Below are positions 10,800 through 59,761 of a stretch of DNA of 59,761 nt, in pieces; the stretch's first letter is position 1, and the number at the start of each line of letters is the position of its first letter. Under the pieces are notes generated by a model. That model worked only from the letters and a program-made list of their open reading frames with translations. It did no database searches and was not told the origin of the DNA. Source of the stretch: an uncultured Selenomonas sp. (GTDB taxonomy: Bacteria; Bacillota; Negativicutes; Selenomonadales; Selenomonadaceae); the NCBI GenBank assembly GCA_902780535.1, contig CACZFT010000010.1:1-59761 (forward strand), given 5' to 3'. A program made the translations under genes and the position numbers.

Positions 10800-12020
10800 A
10801 TGTACATCACGTTCCTGCCGAGCGGCAGGCGCGCCCGCGTCAAGAAGGGGGAGACGATTCTCCAGGCGGCGAAGCGCACGGGCGTCCCCATCGAGAGCGC
10901 CTGCAGCGGCACGCGCTGCTGCGGTCTCTGCCGCGTGCACGTGCTGCCGGAAAAGCCATCGAAGCGCTGGGACGACGAGCCGCTCGTCGCGCCATCCGAC
11001 CGCCGCGAGCGCTCGGCTCTCTCGCCGGAGGAACGGCGGGACGGCTGGCACCTCGCCTGCATGACGAAGCCCGTGGCGAGCATCCGCGTCGAAGTCCCGA
11101 AGCCGAAGAAGCAGCGCCTCATCCCGACGGCGACGGGCGAAAAGCTCCCCGTCTTCGACTGCAACCATGCGGGCAGCGAGGAGATCCCCGCGTTCGTCAT
11201 CCGGAAATTCGGCGCGAGCTATTGGGACGCATACCAATACGCGCCGCTCATGAGCGCGGCGTCCGCGCTCATCGCCGACAGCAATGGCGACGAGGTCTGC
11301 AAGCTGCCGTTCTGCGTGACGATCGAGGCCGGCGCGTTCGGCGCCGAGATTTCGTATCCCGAAAACGGCGTGCTGCCGCTGCCGGGGCAGCCGATGATCC
11401 AGCGCATCGAAGACCTCGACACGCTCGGCGACATCGATTTTTCGCAGGGGCGCATCGCCGAAGTGCTCGAGGCCGTCCGCCTGCTGCACGCCGTCGGCCG
11501 CCGCTGCGTGCTGAAAGTCGAAGCGCCGTTTACCGTGCTCTCGATGCTCATGGACTCGCTCGTGCTGTTCCGCGCCGTGCGCAAGGACCGGCCGCGCGTC
11601 GATGCGGCGCTCGCGAAGATCCGCAAGAATCTCGTCGAGTACATCCGCCGCGCGTTCCTCGCCGGGGCAGACATCATTTCGTATGCCGACCCGAGCGGCG
11701 TCGTCGAGTTCGTCGGGCCGAAAGTCTTCCGTGACGTCAGCGGCCGCGAGACGATCCGGCTGCTGCGCGACGTGCAGACGATCCGCCCCGGCGGCATCAT
11801 CCACATCTGCGGCAAGACGTCGACGTCGCTCGAGTACATGGGGCTCGCGACATCGGAGACGTATGAGCTCCCCGAGCCGCGCGCGACGTTCGCGCACGCG
11901 CTGCTCTCCATCCACGATCGCCGCAAGATCCAAGTGACGGGGCACAACTGCATCCTGGTGACGGCCGCGCCGATCCCGCACCAGCGCATCAGCTTCCTGT
12001 CGCTCGCGGAGGACGCGTGA
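10800..12020 (+). CDS. Fusion protein: 2Fe-2S ferredoxin domain + UroD-type methyltransferase
   Basis: 406 residues with an unusual domain order. Residues 1-~100 are a plant-type 2Fe-2S ferredoxin like the head of RACE proteins: cysteines at C-x5-C-x2-C in ACSGTRCCGLC and another in HLACMTKP. From about 110 to the end is a UroD/MtaA fold with H-I-C in IIHICGKTST and a distal cysteine in VTGHNCILV. The ASKHA domain of RACE proteins is absent. It is the last gene of the operon starting at 4790. A methyltransferase carrying its own electron-transfer domain suggests coupling of methyl transfer to corrinoid reduction, but this is inference. Confidence 0.8.
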   Translation: MYITFLPSGRRARVKKGETILQAAKRTGVPIESACSGTRCCGLCRVHVLPEKPSKRWDDEPLVAPSDRRERSALSPEERRDGWHLACMTKPVASIRVEVPKPKKQRLIPTATGEKLPVFDCNHAGSEEIPAFVIRKFGASYWDAYQYAPLMSAASALIADSNGDEVCKLPFCVTIEAGAFGAEISYPENGVLPLPGQPMIQRIEDLDTLGDIDFSQGRIAEVLEAVRLLHAVGRRCVLKVEAPFTVLSMLMDSLVLFRAVRKDRPRVDAALAKIRKNLVEYIRRAFLAGADIISYADPSGVVEFVGPKVFRDVSGRETIRLLRDVQTIRPGGIIHICGKTSTSLEYMGLATSETYELPEPRATFAHALLSIHDRRKIQVTGHNCILVTAAPIPHQRISFLSLAEDA

Positions 12021-12065
12021 ATGCGCATGTGCGTGCGATATTTTGCACAAACTTCAAAAATCTGC

Positions 12066-12094
12066 TTGCATCGTGGCATACCACGTGCTATAAT
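12066..12094 (+). promoter_or_regulatory. Promoter of mtmB
   Basis: TTGCAT, 17-base spacer, perfect TATAAT (12089-12094), about 120 bases before the mtmB start. Confidence 0.85.
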
Positions 12095-12133
12095 CATCAA
12101 AGAGACAAAAAAATAATTTCCGCTATCGCGGAA

Positions 12134-12190
12134 CGAGCAACGAGGCTCGATCGGCAAGCTGTATGCAGCATGCCGACCGGGCCTCGCGTT
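12134..12190 (+). promoter_or_regulatory. mtmB leader: hexaloop hairpin overlapping a terminator
   Basis: Hairpin CGAGC-AACGAG-GCTCG (12134-12149) shares sequence with the 5' arm of a long stem (12141-12156 with 12171-12186, one A-C mismatch) followed by CGTTTTCCC. A separate perfect hairpin TTCCGC/GCGGAA lies just upstream at 12118-12133. The layout matches the leaders at 3141, 4704 and 23759. Confidence 0.6.
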
Positions 12191-12214
12191 TTCCCATCTG
12201 AAGGAGGGATTTTT

Positions 12215-13627
12215 ATGACACTCGCCAGACCGCTCACGGTCATGGATGTCTACGACCGCGCGAAGACGGGGCCAAAGGTCGAAGAGAAAGACTGGGACTT
12301 CAAGATCATCCCCCAGACAGCCATGAAGCTCAAGAAGAAATACGGCATCAAGATGGACAAGCACAAGATCATCCCGGAGGATGAAGCGCTGTGCAAGAAC
12401 CTGTTCAAAGCCGGCCTCGAGCTGCTCGCGACGTGCGGCGTCTATTGCATCGACACGCACCGCGTCATCAAGTACACGGAAGAGGAAATCCTCGCTTCCG
12501 TCACGGCGGCGCCGAAGACGGCGCAGTTCGGTGAGCCGGGCGTCAACGGGCGCACGATCGCCTGCCGCAAGCATGACGACAAGCGTCCTCCGATCATCCA
12601 AGGCGGCCCGACGGGCGCGCCGTGTTCCGAGGACCTGTTTTTGAAGATCCATCAGTCGTATGCGCAGGAGCCGATCGTCGACACGATCGTCGACGGCGTC
12701 ATGCAGACGATCAAGGGCAAGGATCCGACGCCGGGCACGCCGTGGGAGATCGCGGCGGTCAAGGCCGAAGCCAAGGCGGTCCGCGAAGCGCAGATGCGCG
12801 CCGGCCGCTGCGGCATGGGCCTGTAGGGGAATGAGACTTCCCTTTCTGCCGCCGGTGCCATTGCAGCGGATTTCCCCGGCGGCATGCGGACGACCGACAG
12901 CCATGAAGTATCGCAGCTGAACGAGCTCAAGATCGATGTCAGTGCACTCGCTTTTGACGCTCACTATGTCCTCTCCGGCGATATGATCATGTGCGAGCAG
13001 ATGCCGATTTTCGGCGGCTATGCCGGTGGTCTCGAAGAGACGACGATCGTCGATGTCGCAACGACGCTCAATTCTTTCGTCATGATGCAGGCGACATGGC
13101 ATCTCGACGGCCCGACGCATGTGCGCTGGGGCAACACCACGTCCAGGGAGACGCTGGCGATTGCCGGACACGCCTGCATGGCCATCGAGTCCGAGCTCGA
13201 CCTCATGATGGGCAACCAGTACTACACGACGGCCGGTCCGTGCACGGTCATGTGCCTCCTCGAAACAGCGGCGCAGGCCATCACGGATACGTGCAGCGGC
13301 CGCGAAGTGCTCTCGGGCGTTGCCGCGAGCAAGGGCGTCGCGACGAACTACACGACGGGCCTCGAAGCGCGCTTCATGGGCGAATGCGCATACGCCGTCG
13401 CCGGCATGGAGACGGCGAAGGTCAACGAGCTCCTCGACAAGCTCATCAGTCTCTACGAGAAAGACTACAAGCAGGCACCGGTCGGCAAGCCGTTCGAAGG
13501 CTGCTACGACACGACGACGCTCCTGCCGACGCAGGAGTACCTCGACGTCTATGACGAAGCCGTGAAGATCATGACGGATCTCGGCCTCGACTACTGGACG
13601 AAGAAGAAGAGCCGCGTCGACGCCTGA
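12215..13627 (+). CDS. mtmB: MtmB, monomethylamine methyltransferase containing pyrrolysine (UAG at codon 204)
   Basis: Transfers the methyl group of monomethylamine to a corrinoid protein, releasing ammonia. ATG 12215 follows AAGGAGGG. The frame meets TAG at 12824-12826 and continues unbroken to TGA 13625, giving 470 residues if UAG is read; the methanogen enzyme is ~458 with Pyl at 202. The flanks RCGMGL-(UAG)-GNETSLSAAGAIAAD match the family's Pyl loop, and DSHEVSQLNELKID, MPIFGGYAGG, TWHLDGPTHVRWG and AGPCTVMCLLE match MtmB after the amber codon. Having pylT and pylSBCD nearby makes sense decoding the only reasonable reading. It is transcribed from its own promoter with an attenuator-like leader. 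No paralogue for di- or trimethylamine is in the window. Confidence 0.96.
12827..12883 (+). promoter_or_regulatory. Possible PYLIS-like stem-loops after the mtmB UAG
   Basis: Immediately after UAG is a hairpin GGGAA-TGAGAC-TTCCC (12827-12842), then a longer one with 8-bp arms GCCGCCGG (12848-12855) and CCGGCGGC (12876-12883). Such structures were proposed to aid UAG readthrough in methanogen mtmB, but are not strictly required there. The role here is unproven. Confidence 0.4.
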
Positions 13628-13669
13628 CACGCGCGCCGGCCTCCATCATACCTCTTTTCTTTCAACGAA

Positions 13670-21215: not shown

Positions 21216-21287
21216 GGAGGATGGATCGGACAGATCACGCGGACTCTAACTCCGCGCAGCCGGGTGGAACTCCCGGATTCTCCGCCA
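21216..21287 (+). tRNA. pylT: tRNA-Pyl (anticodon CUA)
   Basis: 72-base suppressor tRNA that inserts pyrrolysine at UAG. The 7-bp acceptor pairs GGAGGAT with ATTCTCC, then discriminator G and encoded CCA (21285-21287). One base (G) separates acceptor and D-stem. The D-stem is GATC/GATC with a 5-base loop lacking the GG of ordinary tRNAs. The anticodon stem is 6 bp (CGCGGA/TCCGCG) around CTCTAAC, with CTA at 21246-21248. The variable loop is only 3 bases. The T-stem is CCGGG/CCCGG with loop TGGAACT lacking TTC. All are hallmarks of tRNA-Pyl. It lies 41 bases after corrinoid gene 4 and 12 bases before a terminator, and is probably cut from a longer transcript. Confidence 0.97.
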
Positions 21288-57412: not shown

Positions 57413-57456
57413 AATTCGAGTCGAAGGTTTTGCTGTTCCTTCGGCTCGAATTTTTT
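57413..57456 (+). terminator. Terminator of sucCD
   Basis: 15-bp stem (57413-57427 with 57438-57452, one G-U), 10-base loop, six T residues. Confidence 0.9.
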
Positions 57457-57527
57457 GTTTATGATTGACATTCCTTCTCACCCGCTGTATAACAGAATCA
57501 GAAAAGAGAAGGAGGATGATTTTCATT

Positions 57528-57887
57528 ATGAGCACTATCATTGTCGGCATCGCCGTCCTCGCCTGCCTGGGCATCGCGGCGAAGCATATCTACAAGCTGT
57601 TTCATGGCGAGACGAGCTGCTGCGGTACGGAGCAGCCGAAAGTGCCGGAGAAAAAGCTCAACGGCCCCATTGTCGGCGAGAAAGTCGTAGAGATTTCGGG
57701 CATGACGTGCGGCAACTGCAAGAACCGCGTCGAAATGCTGCTTGATGACATCGACGGCGCGGCCGCGAAAGTCAATCTCCATCGCAACCAGGCAACGGTG
57801 AAGATGACGCGCGACGTCAGCGACGACGAGATCCGCACGGCGCTGGCAGGCAGCGGCTATGAGGTCGTTGCCATCACGAAAAGCTGA
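57528..57887 (+). CDS. Membrane-anchored heavy-metal-associated (HMA) protein
   Basis: 119 residues: an N-terminal membrane helix (STIIVGIAVLACLGIAAKHI), a short cysteine pair (GETSCCGTEQ), then an HMA ferredoxin-like domain (VVEISGMTCGNCKNRVEMLL) with M-T-C-G-N-C to bind Cu(I) or another soft metal. It may carry metal to a transporter; none is adjacent. ATG 57528 gives the best family match; ATG 57516, directly abutting GGAGG, is possible. The upstream anchor suggests work at the membrane. Confidence 0.85.
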   Translation: MSTIIVGIAVLACLGIAAKHIYKLFHGETSCCGTEQPKVPEKKLNGPIVGEKVVEISGMTCGNCKNRVEMLLDDIDGAAAKVNLHRNQATVKMTRDVSDDEIRTALAGSGYEVVAITKS

Positions 57888-57904
57888 AAAAGAATCCTCG
57901 TATG

Positions 57905-57937
57905 CGGCTGTTGCTTTTGGCAACGGCCGTCTTTTTT
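57905..57937 (+). terminator. Terminator after the HMA gene
   Basis: 10-bp stem CGGCTGTTGC/GCAACGGCCG (one G-U), TTTTG loop, TCTTTTTT. Confidence 0.85.
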
Positions 57938-57940
57938 GAC

Positions 57941-57995
57941 TTGTAAATGAGAACTGTTTGCAGTATAATATCCATATAAAAGATAAATATTCTCA
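57941..57995 (+). promoter_or_regulatory. Promoter with possible Fur box, DUF3793 operon
   Basis: TTGTAA, 17-base spacer, TATAAT (57964-57969). At 57981-57995, AGATAAATATTCTCA matches 11 of 14 fixed positions of the Fur 7-1-7 pattern. Iron control is plausible for a flavodoxin operon but not proven. Confidence 0.45.
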
Positions 57996-58019
57996 TTTGT
58001 AAACACAGAAAAGGATGCG

Positions 58020-58592
58020 ATGCCGATGAGCCGAGAATGTTTTGAGTCGCTGCTCGGGCTTCATGGAGCGCCGACGTTTGCCGGAGAGAAGCCTGCTGTG
58101 CTGTTGTCATTCCGCAAGAGCCAGTTCGATGATTTCGATGCGATGCTCGCCTCGTTTCTGCCGTGCTTCCATTGCAAGGGCATTTCCGTGCTCCGACTCG
58201 TGGAAGGGGAGGAGTATGTGCTCCTGCTGTTTTATCGGGCGCGGCGCCTCGCCCGCTGTGTGAAGCGTCCCGAGGCGAAAAAACTGCTCGCCGAGCGCGG
58301 CTATGATGCAGATGCGCCGCTTGCATCGCTGCTCGCGGAGATCCAGCGCCGCATGGAGCTCCGCGAAGCCTTCCCGCACGAGATCGGCCTGTTCCTCGGC
58401 TACCCGCCCGAGGATGTCCGCGGCTTCCTCGAACACCACGGCAGGGACTGTGCGCTTGAGGGTTATTGGAAGGTTTACGGCGATCCCGATGTCGCTCGTG
58501 CGCTTTTCGCGCAATATGCGGCGTGCAGCGAGAAATTCTGCGAGAAGCTCGAAGCGGGCGCGCGGTTCGAAGATCTTGTTGTTGCAGGTTGA
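58020..58592 (+). CDS. DUF3793 family protein
   Basis: 190-residue soluble protein matching DUF3793, common in anaerobic Firmicutes next to iron-transport genes and flavodoxins. Features: LLGLHGAPTFAGEKPAVLLS, GISVLRLVEGEEYVLLLFYR and FPHEIGLFLGYPPEDVRGFL, EGYWKVYGDPD. The His-Glu-x-Gly/PPEDV block is family-typical. Function unknown. ATG 58020 or 58026 could be used. The flavodoxin gene follows 14 bases later, so the two are one transcript. Confidence 0.85.
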   Translation: MPMSRECFESLLGLHGAPTFAGEKPAVLLSFRKSQFDDFDAMLASFLPCFHCKGISVLRLVEGEEYVLLLFYRARRLARCVKRPEAKKLLAERGYDADAPLASLLAEIQRRMELREAFPHEIGLFLGYPPEDVRGFLEHHGRDCALEGYWKVYGDPDVARALFAQYAACSEKFCEKLEAGARFEDLVVAG

Positions 58593-58606
58593 AAGGGGAA
58601 AGTTTT

Positions 58607-59041
58607 ATGGCAAAGACAGCAATCGTCTATTGGTCCGGCACGGGCAACACGGAGGAAATGGCAAAGGCCATCCAGCGCGGAACGCGCAAAGCGGGTGCCG
58701 AGGCGCCGCTCTTCGCCGTCGATTCGTTCGGCGCGGATGAAATCCAGGATTATGACGGCTTCTTTTTCGGCTGTCCGGCCATGGGGGATGAAGTGCTGGA
58801 AGAAGGAACGTTCGAGCCGTTCTTCGCATCCATCGAATCGAAGCTCAAGGGAGTGCCCGTCGTGCTCTTCGGCTCGTACGGCTGGGGCGGCGGCGCATGG
58901 ATGAAATCATGGGAAGAACGCACGAAAGCTGACGGGGCGAAACTCTTCCGCGACGGCCTCGTGGTCGAGAATGGCCCGACGGATGCGGATGCCGCTGACT
59001 GCGAAGAACTCGGCGCGTCGTTCGTGAAATCACTGGAATAA
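58607..59041 (+). CDS. Flavodoxin
   Basis: 144-residue short-chain flavodoxin, FMN-based electron carrier replacing ferredoxin when iron is short. FMN phosphate loop IVYWSGTGNTEEMAKAI, then DYDGFFFGCPAMGDE and VVLFGSYGWGGGAWMKSW (aromatic isoalloxazine contacts). ATG 58607 follows GAAAGGGGAAAG. Coupled with DUF3793; possibly under Fur. It could also feed electrons to RACE-type reactivators, but nothing here shows that. Confidence 0.93.
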   Translation: MAKTAIVYWSGTGNTEEMAKAIQRGTRKAGAEAPLFAVDSFGADEIQDYDGFFFGCPAMGDEVLEEGTFEPFFASIESKLKGVPVVLFGSYGWGGGAWMKSWEERTKADGAKLFRDGLVVENGPTDADAADCEELGASFVKSLE

Positions 59042-59076
59042 ATGAGAAAAAATCTCAAAAATATTTCCAAAAGGTA

Positions 59077-59105
59077 TTGATAATTGTTCCTAATTATGGT
59101 ATATT
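59077..59105 (+). promoter_or_regulatory. Promoter with internal palindrome (small RNA 1)
   Basis: TTGATA, 17-base spacer, TATATT (59100-59105). Between them lies ATAATT-GTTCCT-AATTAT (59080-59097), a likely repressor site. Confidence 0.6.
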
Positions 59106-59111
59106 GTACTT

Positions 59112-59212
59112 GGCTTTCGAAGAGAGGATGAAGAAAGGCATCCCGCAGAAGCTCTCCTACTAAATACACAGCAAAAGACCTCCATGTAACTGCTCATGCA
59201 TGGAGGTTTTTT
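59112..59212 (+). ncRNA. Candidate small RNA 1 (~100 bases, possible 10-codon peptide)
   Basis: Unit from the promoter above to a strong terminator (9-bp stem ACCTCCATG/CATGGAGGT at 59178-59207, six T). Inside is ATGAAGAAAGGC... (59128-59160), ten codons, directly after GAGAGG. Nothing else codes here. Confidence 0.5.
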
Positions 59213-59261
59213 GTGCGCTGCACACAGAATGATTTTTATTGATGAAAAGAAAAGATTCTCA

Positions 59262-59290
59262 TTGACAAAGTGATAGCTCTTTGTTATTAT
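59262..59290 (+). promoter_or_regulatory. Promoter with internal palindrome (small RNA 2 / last operon)
   Basis: Perfect TTGACA, 17-base spacer, TATTAT (59285-59290). Perfect inverted repeat ACAAAG-N8-CTTTGT (59265-59284) fills the spacer. Confidence 0.75.
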
Positions 59291-59377
59291 AAGGGTTGGA
59301 ATGGTACTAAATATCATTCCAACCCTTTTGTGCAGGAAGCGCCGAGGGACGCTTGCGTCGCTCGGCGCTTCCTTTTT
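59291..59377 (+). ncRNA. Candidate small RNA 2 or attenuator leader
   Basis: Two hairpins in series: 13-bp AAGGGTTGGAATG/CATTCCAACCCTT (59291-59327), then a very stable terminator of 13 plus 5 bp (59334-59373) with five T residues. Either a small RNA of ~80 bases or a leader that attenuates the gene at 59434. Confidence 0.55.
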
Positions 59378-59433
59378 GGGGAAGCACTGAAATCATCGCT
59401 TCCCATAGAAAATGGTCAGAGGAGGGAAATCCC

Positions 59434-59637
59434 ATGTTCCAGAAAACCGATTTTTGGATCGGCCTCGCAGTGGGTGCTGTTGCTGGCATCTTCGGCTATC
59501 GCTTCATGCAGGAGCGCGAGCAGCAGCTCGCTGCCATGCAGCCGGCAGCTCCGACGGCTGAACTTCCGATTGCGGAACTCCAGCGCCAGAAGGAAGAGCT
59601 CGAGGATCTGATCGCAGCACAGGAAGCGAAGAAGTAA
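59434..59637 (+). CDS. Small single-span membrane protein
   Basis: 67 residues: one membrane helix (FWIGLAVGAVAGIFGYRFM), then an Ala/Pro linker and a short coiled coil (ELQRQKEELEDLIAAQEAKK). ATG 59434 follows GAGGAGGG. No family recognised. It precedes a further gene at the window edge, with which it may form an operon; the region upstream holds an attenuator-like structure. Confidence 0.8.
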   Translation: MFQKTDFWIGLAVGAVAGIFGYRFMQEREQQLAAMQPAAPTAELPIAELQRQKEELEDLIAAQEAKK

Positions 59638-59714
59638 TCCTTCGCACGCTTCCCGATGGGGCTGTCGCTCCCGGATGGATGCGGCAGCCCTATCTTTCTA
59701 AAGGAGTAGTGAAA

Positions 59715-59761
59715 ATGAATCTCATAAATACCCTCCAGATTCCGACCTCGAAGCTCGACCT
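59715..59761 (+). CDS. Start of an unidentified gene (cut by window end)
   Basis: ATG 59715 after AAAGGAG at 6-7 bases spacing; 15 codons visible (MNLINTLQIPTSKLD). Too short to identify. Confidence 0.6.
   Translation, partial: MNLINTLQIPTSKLD

Follow-up and report, generated by a model that had tools for sequence, protein, structure and literature searches.

A probable Fur-repressed iron-sparing small RNA and a separate P-type ATPase operon leader downstream of a Selenomonas flavodoxin gene

The two promoter–hairpin units located at 59042–59433 of the window (the whole 59,761-nucleotide stretch of an uncultured Selenomonas sp. contig analysed here) are both real and are different in kind, with unit 1 (59077–59214) being a small-RNA gene and unit 2 (59262–59379) an operon leader. 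Our overall reading, which we hold to be probable, is that unit 1 specifies a Fur-repressed, trans-acting, anti-Shine-Dalgarno RNA with an iron-sparing role, and that unit 2 is a separate element leading a P-type ATPase operon.

An iron-type neighbourhood, as proposed in the preliminary description of this DNA, finds support in Fur-like boxes, a flavodoxin gene and a DUF3793 gene. A Fur-like box at 57981–57995 (an 11/14 match to TGATAATNATTATCA, which we take to be the Fur-box consensus and used for scoring) lies upstream of the DUF3793 protein gene (58020–58592, + strand; PF12672, E 1.1e-47) and of the flavodoxin gene (58607–59041, + strand; PF00258, E 7.4e-19), the latter being directly upstream of unit 1, and the palindrome TGAGAAAAAATCTCA at 59043–59057 is a possible second Fur-type site (10/14 match). 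Under iron limitation flavodoxin replaces ferredoxin. Ten of the 19 sites in the window with at least 10 matches fall in 57456–59710, a region which is also rich in AT-rich intergenic DNA.

Promoter and terminator scans covering 57900–59761 returned six promoter-like sites, compared with 1.0 (sd 1.1) in shuffled sequences. These include both of the promoters claimed earlier, each on the + strand and with a spacing of 17: TTGATA-17-TATATT at 59077–59105 (10/12 consensus match) and TTGACA-17-TATTAT at 59262–59290 (11/12). Inverted repeats between the -35 and -10 are likewise present in both units; in unit 1 this region corresponds to a Fur-box-like site in relatives which lies over the -35 and is degenerate in the window copy (59078–59092, 10/14), and in unit 2 the repeat ACAAAG...CTTTGT is lost in two relatives (L007 and L026). 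None of 200 shuffles was as stable as the fold of either unit, with z -4.0 for unit 1 (59112–59214) and z -10.8 for unit 2 (59291–59378), the latter including the two stacked hairpins that had been noted. The strong terminators attributed to both units are plain to see in the folds as a long hairpin and then a T run, but the consensus terminator scan of 57900–59761 was at chance level, with three sites against an expectation of 2.5, and the unit 1 terminator was not among them. No larger gene is evident here either, the stretch containing only overlapping mechanical open reading frames in other frames.

Unit 1 is one copy of a dispersed family. A DNA search placed homologues at unlinked positions in six of the seven genomes of the genus (e.g. 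on five contigs of G004), and the aligned copies share one design, consisting of a Fur-like box over the -35, TATATT, a 5' hairpin, CUCUCCUA...AUACACAGC and a long terminator. Covariance model R1, built from 11 copies, matched the window at 59106–59214 with 111.5 bits and 70 of the 189 genomes of the window's family, and model R2, built from 61 copies which themselves came from the family genomes searched, matched 136 of these 189 genomes (76 of 99 good-quality genomes and 19 of 30 genera) at one to seven copies each, with no match in the other 53. A class-wide search gave matches in 143 of 380 genomes, seven of them outside the family, and two of these seven, G278 and G269, contain convincing tandem pairs with palindromic Fur-type boxes. 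The tandem twins from two other Negativicutes families, at L231 2771–3028 and L232 1964–2189, have near-perfect Fur-type palindromes. Low-scoring model matches in L233, L234, L236 and L237, also outside the family, had no Fur-type promoter in 60 nt and were dismissed as chance. A pattern scan of named genomes found 91 stretches, and the 80 of these that were listed all have titles of Selenomonas, Mitsuokella, Quinella, Selenomonadaceae, Selenomonadales or Veillonellaceae; Selenomonas ruminantium, S. bovis, S. artemidis and Mitsuokella species (M. multacida for one) are among the carriers. The predicted transcript is about 100 nt long in the window and about 80 nt in most relatives.

The genes neighbouring the copies vary (235 proteins in 164 clusters) and the strands are mixed, so that unit 1 acts as its own unit, and linkage to a fixed neighbour gene is ruled out by the same count. 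Unit 1 is very probably a small RNA gene. We note that seven loci (L024, L066, L067, L088, L091, L104 and L111) have the 3' half of the small RNA and the terminator without the Fur promoter, and that the promoterless copies in L024 and relatives face a flavodoxin-like gene; with at least seven such copies, it seems that the 3' module spreads or is retained by itself.

The small RNA gene, matched by model R1, extends over approximately 59112–59214 on the + strand, the start being inferred. The RNA begins with a 5' hairpin (59112–59153) that is seen in the folds and has its pairs supported in the alignment of 61 copies. This is followed by the anti-Shine-Dalgarno stretch CUCUCCU at 59152–59158, predicted to be mostly single-stranded with the first two bases mostly paired, then by AUACACA at 59164–59170, a second conserved stretch which is single-stranded by predicted accessibility, and finally by a folded intrinsic terminator at 59171–59214 with the loop TGCTCA at 59191–59196. 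Standard pairs fill 98.2% of the pair cells across the 61 distinct copies, and 324 cells have changes on both sides, compared with 73 in shuffles and no more than 60 in slid controls, these covariation figures leaning towards the model because the alignment was fitted to it; an independent 11-sequence alignment has both sides changed in 8 of 29 pairs. CTCTCC is found in 82 and ACACA in 86 of 92 distinct model matches, and half of the ten matches without CTCTCC are very weak (E above 0.001). A further set of 127 copies was picked by a pattern requiring GCTCTCC and ACACA, and constancy at these positions is therefore by construction. The TGCTCA loop is present in 73 of the 92 model matches and in 113 of the 127 pattern-picked copies, and its conservation exceeds the needs of a terminator. 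In all counts of this kind related copies are not independent.

Judging from promoter sequences, the family is very likely to be under Fur control. A Fur-like box of at least 11/14 is located within 75 nt upstream of 116 of the 127 copies, compared with 3.1% of 2540 letter shuffles, and 86 of these boxes begin at one identical position; TTGA...TANNNT is found in 122 of 127 copies, a count made without a control. The window's own box matches at 10/14, which 18% of shuffles reach or exceed, and it would therefore not stand alone as evidence. Unit 1 has the stand-alone promoter and terminator and the noncoding character of Fur-regulated iron-sparing small RNAs, and the Fur box expected in such a promoter is found at the level of the family (116/127), with the window copy being weak (10/14).

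Predicted pairing between the RNA and 698 start regions of G150, a genome with seven copies, ranked CydA 2nd, PFOR 9th, a 2Fe-2S NuoE-like protein 10th and a NuoF-like protein 15th. Iron proteins recognised by Pfam made up four of the top 40 predicted targets and one of 40 random genes (p 0.18), and comparisons of Fe-S motif classes with the rest of the 698, which involve too few proteins to carry weight, gave p 0.06 for nine proteins and p 0.02 for five of the ferredoxin type. The NuoE-like gene is the first in an operon containing an iron-only hydrogenase and was selected after ranking 10th in G150; three genes were tested in this way (NuoE-like, PFOR and CydA), in 18 genomes with the RNA and 12 without, a genome being counted as 'without' if R2 had no match in it at E 0.01. 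This hydrogenase gene was unmatched in 4 of the 18 and 2 of the 12 genomes. Its pairing had a median of -16.0 kcal/mol in genomes with the RNA (n = 14) and -9.5 kcal/mol in those without (n = 10; p 0.0007), and the difference was retained when G150, the genome which had suggested it, was excluded (n = 13, p 0.0011) and when genus means were compared (8 vs 7 genera, p 0.0011). It is pairing outside the Shine-Dalgarno seed that accounts for the gain (-7.85 vs -1.05, p 0.016), with p 0.33 for the seed alone. The 40 nt that precede the hydrogenase start contain GTGTAT, to which AUACAC can pair, in 5 of the 14 RNA-bearing genomes and in 0 of the 10 others (background, 10 of 698 genes). The observed median was not attained with any of 500 tail-shuffled RNAs, and in 8 of the 14 genomes, from 6 of 8 genera, the pairing ranks among the strongest 1.5% of the G150 background.

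Strong pairing with the hydrogenase is missing in the other six of these 14 RNA-bearing genomes (G000, G001, G003, G126, G171 and G173), and in the window's own genome the site pairs solely through its Shine-Dalgarno sequence (percentile 0.25). Pairing did not differ significantly between genomes with and without the RNA for PFOR (p 0.47) or for CydA (p 0.15). Perfect TAGGAGAG sites before ATG were not enriched over the reversed control (6 and 6 vs 11 and 5); two of the 12 perfect 8-mer sites in two genomes are antisense of the RNA itself, and the other genes with such sites, judged by reading their translations, are not iron-related and include UppS, an aspartate-carbamoyltransferase-like protein and small proteins. 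From these comparisons the [FeFe]-hydrogenase operon is the best-supported target, with about an even chance of being a direct one in the genera concerned.

Other explanations of unit 1 can be set against these data. The short peptide suggested earlier does have an open reading frame in the window (MKKGIPQKLSY, 11 codons) with a purine-rich stretch just before it, and KLSY can be read in L007 and L020 as well, but in L006 and L011 a stop closes the frame after its sixth codon, 76 of the 127 copies lack any start codon (ATG, GTG or TTG) from the start up to ACACA, and sequence changes preserve base pairs instead. A short-peptide gene was rejected on this lack of a conserved frame, and the notion that the RNA is merely its mRNA is scarcely credible. 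A mobile or recombining terminator-like repeat, spread as DNA and with no regulatory role, would agree with the dispersal of up to seven copies per genome and with the promoterless copies, in which the 3' module moves or is kept alone; it is nevertheless very improbable, given that 116 of the 127 pattern-picked copies keep the Fur-like promoter box at a nearly fixed spacing and that the most constant part is the single-stranded core, which a mere terminator does not need. The RNA might instead be iron-controlled and use CUCUCCU or the UGCUCA loop to bind a protein or to sponge RNA, leaving mRNA starts alone. The conservation of the loop beyond a terminator's need (113/127) and the preponderance of predicted mRNA targets that are not iron proteins would suit this, but the extended pairing with the hydrogenase leader varies with whether a genome has the RNA, and we consider such a role improbable.

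We prefer an iron-sparing action through pairing with Shine-Dalgarno sequences, for which we think the case is good. As read from the sequences, Fur bound to the box overlapping the -35 would block transcription when iron is present, and when iron is scarce the small RNA would be made and would end at its own terminator. The exposed CUCUCCU would pair with Shine-Dalgarno sequences and AUACACA would lengthen this pairing further upstream on preferred targets, which would block translation of iron-rich enzymes, with comparison between genomes pointing to the [FeFe]-hydrogenase operon in several genera as the most likely of these. Several unlinked copies per genome may raise the dose or divide the targets. 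More tentatively, the new family could be the own iron-sparing system of the Selenomonadaceae and some other Negativicutes, in which two-part pairing silences the [FeFe]-hydrogenase operon once iron is exhausted and the copies cooperate like the PrrF twins. If this is true, iron supply would set hydrogen metabolism in rumen and oral selenomonads, and a diderm Firmicute class would have an iron-starvation small RNA that links iron to hydrogenase in rumen bacteria. The system is compact, often multi-copy and present in culturable species (the four carriers named above), and is suited to studying how the copies of a single small RNA split the work between them.

Unit 2 would be a separate element, comprising the promoter of a metal P-type ATPase operon together with its leader. 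The promoter at 59262–59290 belongs to the downstream operon, as orthologue promoters in other genera indicate, and is followed just after the -10 by hairpin 1 (59291–59327, + strand), a palindrome with a Fur-like site at 59302 (11/14) which is perhaps a DNA operator, and by hairpin 2 with its T run (59334–59373, + strand). Directly downstream is the gene for a 67-aa protein (59434–59637, + strand; no Pfam match), the first of the operon, with orthologues in 101 of 189 family genomes, and then the first part of an HMA_2 protein gene, truncated where the contig ends (59715–59761, + strand); in L230 a second HMA_2 protein and a P-type ATPase come after the orthologue of this gene (PF19991). Among 29 leaders of the 67-aa gene (one incomplete), several from other genera have TTGACAATGATTCCCATT-type promoters without such hairpins, and in five sequences from the genus 93% of the pair cells are kept with two both-side changes, a number reached by 40 of 500 shuffles. 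With the hairpins missing or different in other genera and the covariation weak, we read unit 2 as the operon's promoter and hairpin leader and not as a second small RNA. The proposal of candidate small RNAs is sustained for unit 1, where homologues in relatives are matched by the covariance models, but not for unit 2, whose hairpins are lineage-specific. An independent small RNA, or an attenuator of two stacked terminators, is unlikely: very stable hairpins just after a near-consensus promoter, T runs after both of them and the retention of pairs within the genus would all be in keeping with it, but so few both-side changes are matched by shuffles, L026 has lost the T run after hairpin 2, the hairpins differ or are missing in other genera, and hairpin 1 can also be taken for a Fur-like palindrome at the DNA level. 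A second 67-aa gene start is found in G000 (contig C35, 97–325), 95% identical to the window over 229 bases; this copy begins near the contig end and stems either from strain variation or from duplication in the assembly.

Elsewhere in the window, the monomethylamine methyltransferase gene mtmB (12017–13630) is read through an in-frame TAG and contains a PYLIS_1 element at 12824–12923, and there is a tRNA-Pyl gene at 21216–21287, which together point to pyrrolysine use in a Selenomonas-like genome.

Rfam scans of the window stretch and five loci gave no bacterial family at gathering or relaxed cut-offs, and microRNA matches below the gathering score were taken as chance; so far as RyhB, PrrF, FsrA and IsrR have Rfam models, none of these was matched. 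Our literature search, with subscription literature mostly outside its coverage, found neither the unit 1 family, the absence of which is not proven by this, nor an iron-starvation small RNA for this diderm Firmicute class. A survey of structured RNA motifs in the Selenomonadales and Negativicutes lists gltD and ldh2 motifs in the part available to us and describes its own method as not well suited to small RNAs (PMC8632094); the motifs given there are gene-associated leaders, and the unit 1 family is undescribed in that part. The unit 1 RNA can be likened by predicted role to RyhB of the enterobacteria and PrrF1/PrrF2 of Pseudomonas, which are sparing RNAs of iron starvation, and the PrrF paralogues are comparable to the tandem pairs in G278 and G269, although the unit 1 family differs from these in having no sequence match in the Rfam scans. 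FsrA of Bacillus subtilis is reported to be Fur-repressed and to bind Shine-Dalgarno sequences by a C-rich motif (PMC9410917), and the unit 1 RNA resembles it in the Fur-box promoter and C-rich anti-Shine-Dalgarno stretch, both read from sequence alone, but belongs to a family that is usually multi-copy and, within the genomes searched, Negativicutes-wide at most. Accounts of staphylococcal IsrR similarly give Fur boxes in the promoter, C-rich single-stranded regions and iron-enzyme targets (PMC9410917, PMC11257911), though IsrR is 174 nt long with three C-rich regions (PMC9410917), whereas the unit 1 RNA is of about 80–100 nt and has one CUCUCCU and one AUACACA stretch. The small RNAs of unit 1 are a so far undescribed family, distinct in sequence, with a probable mechanism like that of FsrA and IsrR.
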